Below are positions 8,700 to 57,644 of a stretch of 60,924 nt of DNA, piece after piece (within the stretch, counting starts at the first letter, position 1; each line of letters opens with the position of its first letter). The notes under the pieces were generated by a model, which saw only the letters and a program-made list of their open reading frames with translations, did not search any database and was not told where the DNA came from. The translations under genes and the position numbers were made by a program. This DNA comes from an uncultured Clostridia bacterium. Its GTDB lineage: Bacteria > Bacillota > Clostridia > Oscillospirales > Ruminococcaceae. The DNA lies in the NCBI GenBank assembly GCA_947589185.1, contig CANQCK010000002.1:1-60924 (forward strand). The letters run 5' to 3'.

Positions 8700-8794
8700 T
8701 ACAATTCCGCCGTTGTATAACCCTTAACAATCTTCAAATTTTTAATAGGCGGAGAGCCTGCGGCGGCTCGCCGGTGCAACGTCACCGTTGCCAG
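8700..8794. repeat. Diverged copy of the palindromic intergenic repeat family
   Basis: This stretch holds modules also found at 49.1-49.4 and 51.2-51.9 kb: CCGCCGTTGTA (complement of TACAACGGCGG), the GC-rich block GGCGGAGAGCCTGCGG (complement of the block at 51281-51302), and a hairpin GCAACG-TCAC-CGTTGC at 8776-8791. It is in inverted orientation relative to 51.2 kb and abuts the stop codon of the YD-repeat gene at 8795. It may serve as that gene's 3' hairpin. Confidence 0.65.
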
Positions 8795-10261
8795 CTATTT
8801 TGTTTTCTTCGTAACGACCTTGCTCCATTTGCCGTAATATGTATTGCCGTTTACCTTCTTAAATGCCCTTACCTTAACAAAATACTTTTTCTTTGATTTC
8901 AACCTCTTTAATGTTACCTTGTTTTTCTTTACCTTAACCGTTTTCTTGCCCTTTGTGAATTTATTATTTTTAGCATACATTATCTCATAGCCTGTCGCTC
9001 CGCTGATCTTTTTCCACTTTACATTTAGCTTCTTTTTCTTTGCAGTCAGTTTAACTGCTTTTACTTTGGCAGGTTTTGAGACGGTAACTTTTGTTGTGCT
9101 TGGGTTTGTCTTTTTGTTATTTGTTGGACTAACGGTTTGATTTGGTTTGTTTGAGGTCTTTGATGGGCTATTACCATCTATTTTTTTATAAGTTGCTTTT
9201 TCCCAATCAACTCCGCTATCTTCAAAATATGTTTTATTTCCGTTTTCATCATATTCACATTTAATCCAAGTATCATTATTACTATCTGCTCCATATTCTG
9301 TTTTTATTTTTCCATTACTATAGTATGTGTATGTCCATGCAGTTGAGTGTGAATAACCATTGCTATCTTCATAATATGTGCAATTTCCGTTTGAATCATA
9401 GGTGCGTTTTTCCCAATAACCATCACTGGTTTCAAAAAAAGTACAATTTCCCCCTGAATCATAGGTGGATTTTTCCCATTCGCCGTAACTGTTTTCAAAG
9501 TATGTTTCATTTCCATTTGAATCATAGTTATGCTTGTTACCTAAACTGTCTTCATAATATATCTCTTTTCCATATGAATCATAGGTAAACTTTTTCCAAT
9601 AACCTTCACTATCTTCGTAATATGTAAGATTTCCGTTTGAGTTATAGGTAGACTTATCCCAATATCCTTCACTGTCTTCGTAATATGTAAGATTTCCGTT
9701 TAAGTTATAGGTAGACTTTTCCCAATATCCTTCACTGTCTTCATAGTATGTTTCATTTCCGTTGTCATCATATTCATATTTTAACCAAAAGCCATCACTA
9801 TCTATTCCATGTGCAGTTTTTATTTTTCCATTAACATTGTAAGTATATTCCCATGTTCGTGAATATGAATAACCTTCACTGTCTTCATAATAAGTCAAAT
9901 CTCCGTTTGAATTATAAGTGCTTTTTTCCCAATAACCGTTACTGCTTTCATAATATGTACAGTTTCCATTTGAATCATAGTTAAACTTTGTCCAATCACC
10001 GTCACTGGTTTCAGAATATGTCATATTTCCATTTGAATCAAATGTATTCTTTTCACCATTACTGTTTTCATAAGATGTTTGATTACCCTTAGAATCATAT
10101 GTAGACTTATACCAATAACCTTCACTGTTTTCATAATATGTACAAACATATCCTTCTAAAGGTTCACCAACATTTACAGCCTCTGCTATTGAAGGTAAAG
10201 CTCCTGCCAAACTAACTGCCATTACTAATATTGTTAATAAATTTAAAACTTTTTTTGCCAT
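8795..10261 (-). CDS. Secreted YD-like repeat protein with Fn3-type tail
   Basis: A 488-residue exported protein. A signal peptide (about 1-28, ending SIAEA) is followed by about 15 tandem repeats of 19-25 residues (about 38-355) with consensus TYdSnGN-TYYEdSeGYWeKs, close to YD repeats of RHS/WapA proteins. The repeats show a higher-order duplication: units 4-7 and 12-15 share the unusual insert GYSxSxxWxYTY and the sequence NGKIKT. A Ser/Thr/Asn/Pro linker leads to a lysine-rich Fn3-like domain (about 400-488) containing SGATGYEIMYAKN. AGGAGG precedes ATG 10261. It is divergent from an XRE regulator across three palindromes. A role in surface adhesion is inferred; no toxin domain is present. 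Confidence 0.8.
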   Translation of the reverse strand: MAKKVLNLLTILVMAVSLAGALPSIAEAVNVGEPLEGYVCTYYENSEGYWYKSTYDSKGNQTSYENSNGEKNTFDSNGNMTYSETSDGDWTKFNYDSNGNCTYYESSNGYWEKSTYNSNGDLTYYEDSEGYSYSRTWEYTYNVNGKIKTAHGIDSDGFWLKYEYDDNGNETYYEDSEGYWEKSTYNLNGNLTYYEDSEGYWDKSTYNSNGNLTYYEDSEGYWKKFTYDSYGKEIYYEDSLGNKHNYDSNGNETYFENSYGEWEKSTYDSGGNCTFFETSDGYWEKRTYDSNGNCTYYEDSNGYSHSTAWTYTYYSNGKIKTEYGADSNNDTWIKCEYDENGNKTYFEDSGVDWEKATYKKIDGNSPSKTSNKPNQTVSPTNNKKTNPSTTKVTVSKPAKVKAVKLTAKKKKLNVKWKKISGATGYEIMYAKNNKFTKGKKTVKVKKNKVTLKRLKSKKKYFVKVRAFKKVNGNTYYGKWSKVVTKKTK

Positions 10262-49083: not shown

Positions 49084-49235
49084 ACAAAAAACCGCCTTTA
49101 GCAAAAACATATCAAAGGCGAAATGGATAAAACGTCACTTATTTTAAGAAAAGTTTATATAGCAAAATAAAGTCACGTGAAACAAAAAAATCACGCTGTG
49201 CTAAATACACAACGTGAACTGGCAGCGGCGGCTCG
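49084..49235. repeat. Perfect 152-bp direct repeat, copy 1
   Basis: Identical to 49276-49427. It contains the stem CCGCCTTT...AAAGGCG at its left, and, on the minus strand, a terminator hairpin (CACG-TGTG/CACA-CGTG) with an AT-tract at 49192-49216. The 40 nt between the two copies is a piece of the palindromic repeat family (GCAGGGG-TGA-CCCCTGC and the complement of TACAACGGCGG). Confidence 0.9.
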
Positions 49236-49275
49236 GCAGGGGTGACCCCTGCACGCAATTTTAGTCCGCCGTTGT

Positions 49276-49427
49276 ACAAAAAACCGCCTTTAGCAAAAAC
49301 ATATCAAAGGCGAAATGGATAAAACGTCACTTATTTTAAGAAAAGTTTATATAGCAAAATAAAGTCACGTGAAACAAAAAAATCACGCTGTGCTAAATAC
49401 ACAACGTGAACTGGCAGCGGCGGCTCG
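49276..49427. repeat. Perfect 152-bp direct repeat, copy 2
   Basis: The copy nearest the tRNA cluster, 4 nt from the tRNA-Gly 3' end. Read on the minus strand, the hairpin at 49384-49408 followed by ATTTTTTTG is the natural terminator of the tRNA operon; copy 1 then gives a second terminator. Perfect identity over 152 bp points to a very recent duplication or ongoing gene conversion. Confidence 0.9.
49384..49408 (-). terminator. Terminator of the tRNA-Val-Asp-Gly operon
   Basis: On the minus strand CACG-TGTG pairs with CACA-CGTG (one unpaired base on each side) around a 7-nt loop, followed by ATTTTTTT. A second identical copy lies at 49192-49216. Confidence 0.75.
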
Positions 49428-49431
49428 CCGC

Positions 49432-49507
49432 TGGAGCGGGCAACGAGGCTCGAACTCGCTACCTCCACCTTGGCAAGGTGGCGCTCTACCAGATGAGCTA
49501 TGCCCGC
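49432..49507 (-). tRNA. tRNA-Gly (anticodon GCC)
   Basis: A 76-nt gene with encoded CCA. Acceptor GCGGGCA pairs with TGCCCGC, the anticodon loop is CTTGCCAAG, and the discriminator base is T. It is the last gene of the leftward tRNA operon Val-Asp-Gly. Confidence 0.95.
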
Positions 49508-49510
49508 AAA

Positions 49511-49587
49511 TGGCGACCTGAATGGGAGTCGAACCCACGACCTCTAGCGTGACAGGCTAGCGTTCTAACCAACTGAACTACCAGGCC
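49511..49587 (-). tRNA. tRNA-Asp (anticodon GUC)
   Basis: A 77-nt gene with encoded CCA. Acceptor GGCCTGG pairs with TCAGGTC; the anticodon loop CTGTCAC carries GUC, and the discriminator base is G. This is the likely ligand of the T-box at 57424-57644, whose specifier is GAC. Confidence 0.95.
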
Positions 49588-49590
49588 ATA

Positions 49591-49610
49591 GTCCCGACGA
49601 AAGCCGGGAC
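49591..49610. other. Hairpin between tRNA-Val and tRNA-Asp
   Basis: GTCCCG and CGGGAC form a 6-bp stem with an 8-nt loop between two cotranscribed tRNAs. There is no T-run. It may guide RNase processing of the tRNA precursor. Confidence 0.4.
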
Positions 49611-49701
49611 CGGTCTAAATGAAAAAAAGAATTTTAAGTATGCTGCAAATAAACTCTGCCCAATCGAAGAGAAAAGGCAGAGCAAACGCAGCTGACGCTA
49701 T

Positions 49702-49777
49702 TGGTGGGAACAACAGGGCTCGAACCTGTGACCCTCTGCTTGTAAGGCAGATGCTCTCCCAGCTGAGCTATGCTCCC
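49702..49777 (-). tRNA. tRNA-Val (anticodon UAC)
   Basis: A 76-nt gene with encoded CCA. The acceptor GGGAGCA pairs with TGTTCCC (one G-T pair), and the anticodon loop CTTACAA carries UAC. It is the first gene of the leftward tRNA operon. Confidence 0.95.
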
Positions 49778-49806
49778 GAAGACCAAATTTAACAAGCGAC
49801 TTATAC

Positions 49807-49835
49807 ATTATATATAGTTTAAAGGAACTTGTCAA
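49807..49835 (-). promoter_or_regulatory. Consensus sigma-A promoter of the tRNA-Val-Asp-Gly operon
   Basis: On the minus strand TTGACA (complement of 49830-49835), a 17-nt spacer and TATAAT (complement of 49807-49812) are both perfect, as expected for a strong stable-RNA promoter. Confidence 0.9.
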
Positions 49836-49899
49836 GACCTAAATCAAAGTTATTTACAATATTTTAATATTATAGAAAAACGGAAAAGCCAATAAACAA

Positions 49900-49929
49900 A
49901 AGACTGCTCAAAAAAGAGCAGTCTTAAAC
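49900..49929 (-). terminator. Terminator of the signal-peptidase-like gene
   Basis: A perfect 10-bp stem AAGACTGCTC/GAGCAGTCTT with a 6-nt loop, followed on the minus strand by TTGTTTAT. It lies just after the stop at 49948. Confidence 0.85.
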
Positions 49930-49947
49930 GAACACTACAAAGACAAA

Positions 49948-50898
49948 TTACTCATTAGAGTTAGAGTTATCATTATTCTCCAATATTTCCTGATGGTTAT
50001 CGTGGGCGTCCTTAACAGCTTTTTCAGCCTTAGGAAGCTCAAATTCTTTCAGCTTAGCGTTTTCCTCCTCGAGAATTTTCATAAGCTCTTCAATAGCGTT
50101 ATTAGTAGGCTTAGCGAGATCCTCTTTCATTTCGACGAGGTCGTCCTTATTAACGCCTTCTTCGATAAGCGGTTCATTCAAAATTTCCGAACCCTTTTCG
50201 TTCGGTAACTGAACGGTTGGATTTTCCTGATGAACATTCTGGAGCAGTTCTTTTTCCTTAACAAATTCATCAAAAGAAGCCTGAGCGTCGTCATTAATAT
50301 CCTCAATATCCTCGTGATACTTCTCTCTGCGTTTTTCTATACTGGCAAGTTGTTTTGTCTTGCTGTGCTTACCTAAAGCAAGGAAAATAATCATTAACAG
50401 TGCAGGCAAACCGATAAAGACAACATATCCGAGAGTAGAATTAGCGAGAACAATAATCTTACCCATCAATTCAAACTGATAATTTGCTATTCCGACTATC
50501 TTATTACCTTTTACCAAAGTAGTGTCTTCTGAATTTTTAAATTTAAGCTCATAATAGAGCTTATTATCCTCATTTACCAAATTGACGAAATACATAGCGG
50601 TTGTACCATAAGTTGTTCCGTTCTTTCCTGACACATCGTCGGCAATAACGACTTTGCCAATATCCTCTTGAGTAGGCTTACCGTTAGTTGCAAAAATCAG
50701 AGAATTTTTCTTTATATCCGGCGACATATAATCATCATGAATAAGATAAAGACTGTATCCGCCGATACTGGGGGTAACATTTTCATTTTTGAACGCAAAA
50801 TGCACTAATACAACAAACGCAGCAGAAAGAATCAAAATAATCAAAAATATAATTCCCAAAACCTTGCACGGAGAAGTTTTTACCTCTTGAGTGCTCAT
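49948..50898 (-). CDS. Signal peptidase I-like membrane protein lacking the catalytic serine
   Basis: A 316-residue protein. A membrane helix (about 13-35) precedes an S26-like core: GYSLYLIHDDYMSPDIKKNSLIFA, equivalent to the usual SMxPxIxxGDLV box, then IGKVVIADD. The position of the nucleophile Ser before MxP is Tyr57 here, so peptidase activity is unlikely unless a nearby Ser takes over. A second helix (about 150-178) is followed by a long acidic coiled-coil tail (about 185-316; KEKELLQN, IEELMKILEEENAKL). The role is unknown; it may be a scaffold. ATG 50898 is preceded by AAAGGATG. Confidence 0.7.
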   Translation of the reverse strand: MSTQEVKTSPCKVLGIIFLIILILSAAFVVLVHFAFKNENVTPSIGGYSLYLIHDDYMSPDIKKNSLIFATNGKPTQEDIGKVVIADDVSGKNGTTYGTTAMYFVNLVNEDNKLYYELKFKNSEDTTLVKGNKIVGIANYQFELMGKIIVLANSTLGYVVFIGLPALLMIIFLALGKHSKTKQLASIEKRREKYHEDIEDINDDAQASFDEFVKEKELLQNVHQENPTVQLPNEKGSEILNEPLIEEGVNKDDLVEMKEDLAKPTNNAIEELMKILEEENAKLKEFELPKAEKAVKDAHDNHQEILENNDNSNSNE

Positions 50899-51040
50899 AG
50901 AAGCAACATCCTTTCTAATCTTTTGCTTTCAACAAGTTCCACGAAATAAGTATAACACAACTAAATTTATTTTTCAACGTATTTTTTCAAAAGAATATAA
51001 AGTTCTTTTCTTATTTAAAATAAAATTAAAATTTAAGCTA

Positions 51041-51068
51041 TTGACTTTAATTTTTCGTATGTTATAAT
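51041..51068 (+). promoter_or_regulatory. Sigma-A promoter of tRNA-Thr
   Basis: TTGACT (51041-51046), a 16-nt spacer and perfect TATAAT (51063-51068) lie 34 nt before the tRNA. Confidence 0.75.
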
Positions 51069-51101
51069 TACTAATGTCTTTAGAGTTCCAAATCTGAATA
51101 T

Positions 51102-51177
51102 GCTTGTGTAGCACAGTTGGTAGTGCAGCTCATTCGTAATGAGCAGGTCGCAGGTTCGAGTCCCGTCACAAGCTCCA
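51102..51177 (+). tRNA. tRNA-Thr (anticodon CGU)
   Basis: A 76-nt gene with encoded CCA. Acceptor GCTTGTG pairs with CACAAGC; the anticodon loop TTCGTAA carries CGU. The discriminator base is T. It stands alone and is followed directly by the palindromic repeat array. Confidence 0.95.
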
Positions 51178-51178
51178 G

Positions 51179-51194
51179 GCAACGATGACGTTGC
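51179..51194. repeat. TCA-loop palindrome just after tRNA-Thr
   Basis: GCAACG-ATGA-CGTTGC; its complement has the loop TCAT. It belongs to the same palindrome family as 8776-8791 (same stem, mirrored orientation) and may help terminate or process the tRNA transcript. Confidence 0.6.
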
Positions 51195-51201
51195 ATCCAT
51201 T

Positions 51202-51911
51202 CCGCCTTTGACAAGTTTTTGCTAAAGGCGGTTCTTTGTACAACGGCGGACTAAAATTGCGTGCAGGGGTCACCCCTGCAGCCTCCGCAGGCTCTGCCGC
51301 CTTTTTTTATTTTTGTTAATGTTTAAAATGCCTGCAACGGCGGGTTATACTTTTTATAAAAACGCAAGATACGAAAAATTCACGTTTTGCAATTGTGAAA
51401 TGCGAATTGGGTGCAGCGTCACGCTGCCCGCCTTTGGCTAATTTGCTGAAGGCGGTTTTTTTGTATAACGACGGACTAAAATTGCGTGCAGGGGTCACCC
51501 CTGCAGCCTCCGCAGGCTCTGCCGCCTTTTTTTATTTTGTAAATACTTATAATGCCTGCAACGGCGGGTCAAACTTTTGATAAAAAACGCAAGATATGAA
51601 AAATTCACGTTTTGCAATTGTGAAATGCGAAATGGGTGCAGCGTCACGCTGCCCGCCTTTGGCAAGTTTGCTGAAGGCGGTTTTTTTGTATAACGACGGA
51701 CTAAAATTGCGTGCAGGGGTCACCCCTGCAGCCACCGCAGGCTCTGCCGCCTTTTTTTATTTTTGTTAATGTTTATAATACCTGCAACGGCGGGTTATAC
51801 TTTTTATAAAAACGCAAGATACGAAAAATTCACGTTTTGCAATTGTGAAATGCGAATTGGGTGCAGCGTCACGCTGCCCGCCTTTGGCTAGTTTGCTAAA
51901 GGCGGTTTTTT
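51202..51911. repeat. Tandem array of three 225-bp repeat units plus a terminal hairpin
   Basis: Units start at 51202 (226 bp), 51428 (225 bp) and 51653 (225 bp); a last half-module lies at 51878-51911. Each unit holds a CCGCCTTT/AAAGGCGG hairpin with T-run, the module GGACTAAAATTGCGTGC, a palindrome GCAGGGG-TCA-CCCCTGC, a GC-rich block CCTCCGCAGGCTCTGCCGCC, an AT-rich stretch, and a second palindrome GCAGCG-TCA-CGCTGC. Units differ by only a few substitutions. Open frames of about 60 codons inside the units have no ribosome sites and repeat with the array, so no gene is called. Confidence 0.9.
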
Positions 51912-57367: not shown

Positions 57368-57423
57368 CAAAAAATTAACACAACGCTTTTTGCATATGTG
57401 TTAAAATCATATTAATAAAACAA

Positions 57424-57644
57424 AAGCTGTGATTAGAGGAGTAGTAAGATATTTCAACTCAGAGAGGGTGCGGTTGCTGAAAGCACCTTTGAAAGGTCTT
57501 ATGAAAGACGCCTATGAGCTTCCGTTTGAATAAAAGAACGGACGTTACCTACGTTAAAGGTCAGAGTGGTTCAGAATATTCTGAGCAATTAGGGTGGTAT
57601 CACGATTATTACGGTCGTCCCTTTGGGGGCGGCCTTTATTTTTT
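57424..57644 (+). promoter_or_regulatory. T-box riboswitch with GAC (Asp) specifier controlling hisS-aspS
   Basis: Stem I starts at about 57424 (AAGCT pairing with AGCTT at 57517-57521) and includes AGTA/GGGTGC features. The specifier region GAAA-GAC-GCCTATGAGC puts codon GAC at 57507-57509. The T-box AGGGTGGTAT is at 57591-57600; its UGGU can pair with a tRNA 3' end having discriminator G (by wobble), as in tRNA-Asp at 49511. The terminator GGTCGTCCC/GGGGGCGGCC with T-run is at 57613-57643. Uncharged tRNA-Asp should favour the antiterminator and turn on hisS and aspS. Confidence 0.9.

Follow-up and report, generated by a model that had tools for sequence, protein, structure and literature searches.

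A hairpin repeat that resembles mobile palindromic elements and carries an exchangeable hairpin in a species group of gut Clostridia

The palindromes of the window and the repeat to which they belong

The window analysed here, a stretch of 60,924 nucleotides from an uncultured Clostridia bacterium of the Ruminococcaceae (contig CANQCK010000002.1, positions 1 to 60,924), carries a series of short palindromes beside tRNA genes and gene ends. A first-pass annotation described at least nine of these with the form stem–TCA–stem, and an exact match in the sequence places all nine: GCAGGGG/CCCCTGC hairpins start at 49236, 51263, 51488 and 51713, GCAGCG/CGCTGC hairpins at 51413, 51638 and 51863, and GCAACG/CGTTGC hairpins at 8776 and 51179. 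The window holds 19 perfect hairpins (at least six pairs, at least four of them G–C, loop of 3–4), nine with TCA or TGA in the loop, versus a mean of 3.5 (maximum 9) in 60 first-order Markov control sequences, where the mean for TCA/TGA loops was 0.12 (maximum 1). The nine palindromes are far beyond chance. Six of them, however, are three copies each of two hairpins in one tandem array (51202–51911), so that the count stands but only about five are independent.

The palindromes belong to a longer repeat, of about 100 bp, whose limits the annotation had not set. Aligned copies share one architecture: a first hairpin (hairpin I), a spacer of 9–10 nt, a second hairpin (hairpin II) and a tail. A covariance model of the repeat (R1; 74 positions, 14 pairs) gave 13 matches in the window at E ≤ 1, nine of them at E < 1e-4, including 8705–8776, and four weaker. 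The copies and their neighbours are as follows.

51102..51177, plus strand: tRNA-Thr (CGT); the single base 51178 separates its CCA from the first hairpin
51177..51251, plus strand: repeat copy behind tRNA-Thr (R1 E = 3.1e-8; fold z = −4.0), hairpin II with an inner stem
51179-51194, plus strand: hairpin I of that copy, GCAACG-ATGA-CGTTGC
51202..51911, plus strand: tandem array, period 225, 3.2 copies; by R1, two repeat copies per unit
51263..51279, plus strand: hairpin GCAGGGG-TCA-CCCCTGC, the array's first of three (others 51488-51504 and 51713-51729)
51276..51345, plus strand: repeat copy with a degenerate hairpin I (R1 E = 7.5e-7)
51411..51476, plus strand: repeat copy (R1 E = 1.2e-5), hairpin I GCAGCG-TCA-CGCTGC at 51413-51427
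51428-51455, plus strand: inner stem of copy 51411..51476, then a T-run
51501..51569, plus strand: repeat copy (R1 E = 3.1e-6)
51636..51701, plus strand: repeat copy (R1 E = 2.5e-6), hairpin I at 51638-51652, inner stem at 51653-51680, then a T-run
51726..51795, plus strand: repeat copy (R1 E = 1.8e-7)
51861..51907, plus strand: weak, probably truncated repeat copy (R1 E = 0.018), hairpin I at 51863-51877, inner stem at 51878-51905, then a T-run
49432..49507, minus strand: tRNA-Gly (GCC)
49417..49431, minus strand: hairpin GCGGCG-AGC-CGCCGC, beginning right after the CCA of tRNA-Gly
49363..49433, minus strand: repeat copy behind tRNA-Gly (R1 E = 2.3e-5)
49264..49335, minus strand: repeat copy (R1 E = 4.4e-5)
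49236..49252, strand unassigned: hairpin GCAGGGG-TGA-CCCCTGC
49084..49235, minus strand: 152-nt stretch with a second copy at 49276-49427 (zero differences, spacing 192)
8705..8776, minus strand: repeat copy behind the open frame 8795-10261 (R1 E = 3.1e-10), its hairpin being five pairs around AGC
8776-8791, minus strand: second hairpin, GCAACG-GTGA-CGTTGC, before copy 8705..8776 and 3 nt after the stop codon

Hairpin I has a variable stem of 6–7 bp and loops AGC, AAC, TGA or GTGA, whereas the outer stem of hairpin II reads CYGCC-T-TTG / CAA-C-GGCRG around about 30 nt. The loop is not the single fixed TCA of the annotation; the three-base loop columns of the 159 aligned copies, read in the orientation of the repeat, fall into several classes, with AGC in 65, TGA in 43 (a count that takes in the tetraloops GTGA and ATGA), AAC in 16, and others. 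Among 154 full copies, conservation sets in abruptly at hairpin I, with an A at −1 carrying 0.77 bits and the 29 preceding bases at most 0.30 bits each; it fades about 22 nt behind the core, and a right-hand TAGTAC is partly conserved (0.4–1.2 bits). Some copies stand in tandem, with a spacing of 96–122 bp in most arrays seen.

A motif test assigned 11 of 170 copies to a terminator-like subtype with an inner stem, the other 159 being without it; in three window copies the inner stem is followed by a T-run, as in a standard terminator. The subtype occurs at loci L017, L019, L042 and L053 and at 51178–51251 of the window, several times behind tRNA genes. With T-rich sequence behind it, this inner stem (for example CCGCCTTTGGC...GCTGAAGGCGG) looks as though the repeat had acquired a terminator internally. 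Around the repeats at L009, L010, L065, L054, L118 and L063, short purine-rich repeats (AGAAGCAAG) often lie upstream, and microsatellites of the ATTGATAATTGACAATGG type lie behind some cores, their lengths differing between orthologous sites.

Distribution of the repeat

The annotation proposed collecting the copies genome-wide and in relatives and checking them for covariation, and both were done. A search of the window's own genome (1.9 Mb, 39 contigs) with the first array unit gave 54 matches, and the core pattern GCCTTTG-N(22-48)-AACGGC matched it 83 times, as against 4 for the reversed control. Across ten genomes of the genus, R1 gave 146, 140, 117, 112, 102, 84, 78, 74, 54 and 45 matches, 952 in total; as at most 150 candidates were scored per genome, the largest counts and the total are lower bounds, so that the own genome holds at least 146 matches, compared with 45–140 in its nine relatives. 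Five other congeners had 0, 0, 0, 0 and 1 match. These repeat-poor species are more distant, with a three-protein identity of 75–81% versus 89–99% for the repeat-rich ones. Among 119 genomes of the family, searched with stricter filters and 41 candidates scored per genome, only two matched R1, both from this genus. The exact core pattern was absent from viral contigs. All 45 named loci with the core are from metagenome assemblies labelled uncultured Clostridia bacterium, isolates Lapin-... (rabbit). As far as searched, the repeat is confined to one species group of a genus of gut Clostridia. The extragenic position of its copies was judged on the fetched loci only.

Pairing and covariation

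Pairing was assessed in an alignment (A1) of 81 of the 159 rows, selected on the loop (AGC or AAC) and without regard to the stem; it excludes the 78 rows that have other loops as well as 11 rows of the terminator type and one chance locus. In A1, 95.9% of 1134 cells pair. Double-changed cells number 71, compared with 15.6 (sd 3.2) in shuffles, none of 500 of which reached as high, and the covariation score is 0.250, compared with 0.125 in shuffles and 0.023–0.114 when partners were slid. In a tree-based null, for which our own script (not R-scape) re-placed each column's substitutions on the tree, a pair of hairpin I ranked first of 3081 column pairs (E = 0.003), followed in second place by hairpin II's variable outer pair (E = 0.037); ranks 4–6 were three more hairpin I pairs, individually non-significant (E = 0.30, 1.1 and 12). 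The structural claim of the annotation thus passed the refutation test that the annotation itself had set, a lack of covarying pairs beyond background. Exchange of hairpins, described below, breaks the tree assumption for hairpin I, yet the pairs that rise are pairing ones. The GCC/GGC pairs of hairpin II are uninformative because they are fixed by the search pattern. Its variable pair reads T–A in 100, C–G in 61, T–G in 6 and C–A in 4 of 171 copies. Six single stretches gave fold z-scores of −4.0 to −0.8. The pairing in the repeat is real.

Whole hairpins are exchanged in place

Read as triloop hairpins, 164 full-length copies contain 69 different 15-mers. Only 19 of these are perfect; built from 11 stems and the three loops AGC, AAC and TGA, they cover 100 of the 164 copies. 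One stem, CCAGCG, occurs nine times with AGC, nine times with TGA and once with AAC. Among 64 copies of the own genome, a Mantel test of hairpin against core distance gave r = 0.085 (p = 0.15), the core distance being 0.386 for equal and 0.391 for different hairpins. Similarity in hairpin I is not detectably predictive of similarity in spacer and core, and orthologous sites reveal the reason.

The exchange is seen directly at orthologous loci. In L110 and L029, the 45 bases upstream are identical and the 58 nt downstream are 98% identical, whereas the hairpin is CCGGAG-AAC-CTCCGG in one and CCAGCG-TGA-CGCTGG in the other. L196/L125 and L118/L104 behave in the same way. Of the 15 positions of hairpin I, 5, 6 and 7 differ in these three pairs; each version is fully paired (six of six), and the next 58 nt are 97–98% identical. 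A third locus, L063, joins L118 and L104 to give three perfect hairpins at a single site. Smaller changes also occur: the loop differs between L069 and L130, and one compensated pair differs between L113 and L099 (CCGGCG to CCGGTG, CGCCGG to CACCGG), the upstream flank being 100% identical. Collinearity extends over 5.7 kb (85%) between L104 and L118 and over about 3 kb (94–95%) between L099 and L113. The displayed alignments were hand-picked from the orthologous pairs and from the comparison of the tRNA loci, and one of them, L029/L078, is a duplicated region within a single genome.

The comparison covers 67 orthologous pairs; these are not independent of one another, and a few rows among them stand in a different hairpin register. 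The hairpin is the same in 25 pairs, changed at 1–2 bases in 20 and changed at three or more in 22. Seven of these 22 are perfect on both sides, three of them being at least 90% identical elsewhere. Possible donors exist: CCAGCG-TGA-CGCTGG is present at two fetched sites of the own genome and CCGCCG-AGC-CGGCGG at five loci. The paired changes that the first-pass annotation read as maintenance of the stem are real, but several orthologous sites have swapped the whole hairpin instead of compensating base by base. The site behind ackA instead looks like simple decay: its hairpin, perfect in genome G012, is disrupted in G000 and G006. Elsewhere, the G012 stretch behind tRNA-Thr resembles the G000 stretch behind tRNA-Gly, which suggests exchange between two inverted arrays.

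Mismatches do not show the asymmetry of an RNA fold

In a fold selected as RNA on one strand, a G–U wobble should be tolerated and an A–C mismatch removed. The stems of the repeat contain 34 G–T and 30 A–C mismatches (two-sided p = 0.71), a count in which 14 of 159 rows fit no loop class and TGA rows were set in whichever register paired best. By contrast, 27 distinct tRNAs from the same loci contain 33 G–T and 5 A–C mismatches; the difference from the repeat (Fisher p = 5e-4) is indicative because the cells are not independent events. The near equality of the two mismatches, unlike in tRNA stems, gives no support for a selected RNA fold; it fits decay of settled copies on both strands together with a fold that matters for DNA. 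In Rfam, tRNA and T-box are the only families that reach their gathering scores in the window. A permissive Rfam search over 3 kb gave L20_leader as the best non-tRNA match below threshold (36.2 bits against a gathering score of 58.7, E = 9.4e-5), which we take as a likeness to a terminator stem. The small RNA that the annotation had considered is not supported.

Copies abut stop codons and tRNA ends

Among 185 distinct contexts, pooled from several genomes with orthologous sites included, a codirectional open frame ends −30 to 150 nt from hairpin I in 90, and a convergent frame lies on the other side in 30. In 25 of the 90, hairpin I starts exactly where the stop codon ends (13 TAA, 10 TAG, 2 TGA), and in 6 the two overlap by one base; any other distance between stop codon and hairpin is represented by at most four contexts, and no convergent frame ends at 0 from the core end. 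In the own genome (two chance loci of 80 left out), 13 of 78 copies have a stop codon at the matching place, 24–25 nt before the core, and in five more the upstream frame ends at a TGA 15–17 nt before the core, inside hairpin I.

Where an upstream tRNA was detected, the hairpin starts right after its CCA in four of five cases. At the tRNA-Thr locus, it lies at the CCA or one base behind it in seven of nine clade genomes (those with the tRNA-Thr gene in the fetched stretch), with stems that differ; in the remaining two, G008 and G004, a different sequence occupies the place. G014 lacks a hairpin behind tRNA-Gly. In the flank profile, nothing beyond the A at −1 stands out, which rules against a sequence-specific target.

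Filled and empty sites and the search for a partner enzyme

Three loci were compared between genomes; ackA and rsuA were named by eye, and trpS is our own assignment. Behind ackA, the repeat is present in G000, G006 and G012, and the site is empty in G011, G014, G009, G008 and G004. In the empty sites the stop codon leads straight to a native terminator, which the filled genomes keep as well. Behind rsuA, ten clade genomes have repeats or pieces of them, in several of which the hairpin's TGA is the stop codon, and five others have none. Before the putative trpS, the repeat is lacking in G003 and G004.

Three families were considered as partner enzymes, reverse transcriptase because the repeat abuts RNA 3′ ends; the outcome is given in the Discussion. 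Y1_Tnp is present in the repeat-free G007 and G013 and absent from the repeat-rich G003 and G011, and a motif scan of six Y1 loci revealed no repeat. Twenty open frames enclosed between neighbouring copies in the fetched loci formed no recurrent transposase-like cluster; the largest cluster, of six frames, is one orthologous gene.

Other features of the window

The identical 152-nt pair at 49084–49235 and 49276–49427 has one end near a repeat hairpin and the appearance of a recent duplication. At 51354–51412 and at L013 and L014, repeat copies are separated by another shared module (AAACGCGAGATAC...TTCACGTT...GCGAAACGCGAAT), which recurs elsewhere in the genome and at L013 adjoins a tRNA. The minus-strand open frame 8795–10261 has internal 63-nt tandem repeats at 9381–10141, and a T-box leader lies at 57420–57625 (143.7 bits).

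Discussion

The first-pass annotation's family of hairpins with paired stem changes beside tRNAs and gene ends is borne out, and its suggestion of a mobile repeat of the repetitive extragenic palindromic (REP) type, outside any matched class, is the best description. We consider it probable that the repeat is a non-autonomous, REP-like mobile DNA hairpin repeat with an exchangeable hairpin, moved in trans. Its parts would be an exchangeable short hairpin at the sharp left end, a spacer, a longer second hairpin and a tail. The hairpin would be recognised as folded DNA, either as a single-strand hairpin or as a cruciform, in which case perfect hairpins would propagate and settled copies would decay equally on both strands. 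Hairpin I can be swapped as a unit for a hairpin from another copy, the probable means being short-tract recombination or the same hairpin-acting enzyme that may move the repeat in trans, and such replacement yields part of the paired stem changes. A bolder proposal, which we put forward tentatively and regard as doubtful, is that the 15–17-bp hairpins are interchangeable cassettes, a small repertoire of 11 stems, three loops and 19 combinations that some hairpin-acting system, recognising the 3′ ends of genes and tRNAs, reshuffles in situ over roughly a hundred or more sites in each genome.

Several observations weigh against a mobile DNA hairpin repeat of this kind or limit the case for it. 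Y1 transposase occurs in 8 of 15 genomes, uncorrelated with the repeat, reverse transcriptase in 3 of 15 (it was not found in the own genome) and DDE_Tnp_1 in 1 of 15, so that no partner emerged from the three families tested, other transposase families lying outside the search. The comparison of filled and empty ackA sites reveals no clear target duplication by eye, and the right boundary is fuzzy. A sequence target does not readily account for abutment at sequences as unrelated as stop codons and CCA, and the bias of 90 sense to 30 convergent contexts is one that a role in RNA predicts as well. Two of five pairing measures are only modestly above shuffles: pairs with a double change number 7 versus 5.2 (reached by 36 of 500 shuffles), and further pair types 18 versus 15.2 (reached by 22 of 500). 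Rank 3 of the tree-based null is a non-pairing column pair in the core, and when all 159 rows are taken with hairpin classes mixed, several non-pairing hairpin columns also associate. The whole loci of the three exchange pairs are only 80–86% identical, so that some divergence of the hairpin is expected and the telling contrast is with the adjoining bases and not with the whole locus. A loose core pattern exceeds its control in a few other genomes (16 versus 2 in G018, which has no R1 match, and 17 versus 4 in G053, which lay outside the R1 search). Finally, all compared genomes are draft assemblies and the 45 named loci are metagenomic; short repeats can be mis-assembled, although the hairpins here lie close to unique flanks.

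Other explanations account for parts of these data. The hairpins might act as RNA at transcript 3′ ends, in termination, protection from exonucleases or braking of ribosomes, with selection on the RNA fold keeping the pairing. The sense orientation behind genes, the frequent placement of the hairpin exactly at a stop codon or CCA, and the inner-stem subtype with its three T-run copies in the window would all suit such a role, as would a report that Escherichia coli REPs within 15 nt of stop codons stall ribosomes (in PMC12306157). The equal G–T and A–C mismatches, the native ackA terminator that is kept beside the insertion and stands alone in the five empty genomes, the five congeners with at most one copy of the family, and the lack of a repeat match above Rfam gathering scores argue against it, and we judge an RNA role unlikely. 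The variable hairpins at one site might instead reflect independent insertions of family members into a hot spot, the gene end. The tRNA-Thr locus, where several stems lie within one base of the CCA, often with different downstream modules, speaks for that explanation; separate insertions would not, however, be expected to leave spacer and core 97–98% identical behind an exchanged hairpin, as in L110/L029, L196/L125 and L118/L104, and we find the idea improbable.

Pairing could also arise by mutation bias, without selection on the fold, if template switching or hairpin-templated repair copied one arm onto the other. Paired and multibase changes are reported to arise from this process (PMC8794818), and the single-pair change in place between L113 and L099, together with G–C to C–G flips at one pair in 17 of 81 copies (7 unpaired), is of the kind that it would produce. 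It does not predict 19 perfect triloop hairpins built from 11 stems and three loops, the joint replacement of loop and stem, or the same hairpins at unrelated sites. As an account of the whole family it is quite improbable, although it remains a partial rival. A role of the dyads as protein-binding sites, as their perfection and nearly constant centre might suggest, is highly unlikely: the perfect triloop hairpins have eleven different stems, which argue against a single recognition sequence.

Considered as a mobile DNA hairpin repeat, the family looks like a relative of mobile palindromic repeats that belongs to no family with which it was compared. In behaviour the closest known system appears to be the REPs, described in PMC3733652 as high-copy extragenic palindromes near gene 3′ ends, clustered and in dimers, that sometimes supply the stop codon; PMC3116915 reports compensatory changes in REPIN hairpins, and PMC8266576 recognition of REPs as folded single-stranded DNA. 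The repeat shares with them its many palindromic copies per genome outside genes, their place near gene 3′ ends, the supply of stop codons and the clusters. Unlike REPs, it consists of two dissimilar hairpins in about 100 bp, lacks a conserved GTAG or CGTC tag at its left end, shows whole-hairpin exchange with no detectable hairpin–core linkage, and did not display the link to a RAYT/Y1 (RAYT, REP-associated tyrosine transposase) that, with the GTAG tag, defines REPs. The hairpin elements of fungal and sponge mitochondria, which PMC2800124 describes as potentially mobile single or double hairpins between genes with complementary substitutions between types, are alike in build only: they reside in organelle genomes, the repeat in a bacterium, and in sponges the stems are reported there as conserved and the loops as variable, the reverse of the repeat. 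Miniature inverted-repeat transposable elements (MITEs) are similarly short and numerous, with filled and empty sites; the ends of the repeat, by contrast, differ in alignment and profile (hairpin I versus tail), terminal inverted repeats were not recognised, and at ackA, where the right boundary is fuzzy, no clear target duplication was recognised. The subtype that has an inner stem, with a T-run behind it in the three window copies, resembles intrinsic terminators; that stem is absent from 159 of 170 copies, however, and at ackA the native terminator has been retained next to the repeat. No description of the family was found in the open-access literature searched, subscription papers being outside the scope of the search.

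Paired stem changes are usually read as strong evidence of a selected RNA fold. Here, strong covariation comes without the wobble asymmetry that the tRNAs of the same loci display, and the repeat shows that paired changes can come from the exchange of whole hairpins, a natural warning for the discovery of RNAs by covariation. As a Clostridia system without an evident RAYT, it also raises the question of how short palindromes spread and why they so often come to end exactly at the ends of genes and tRNAs.

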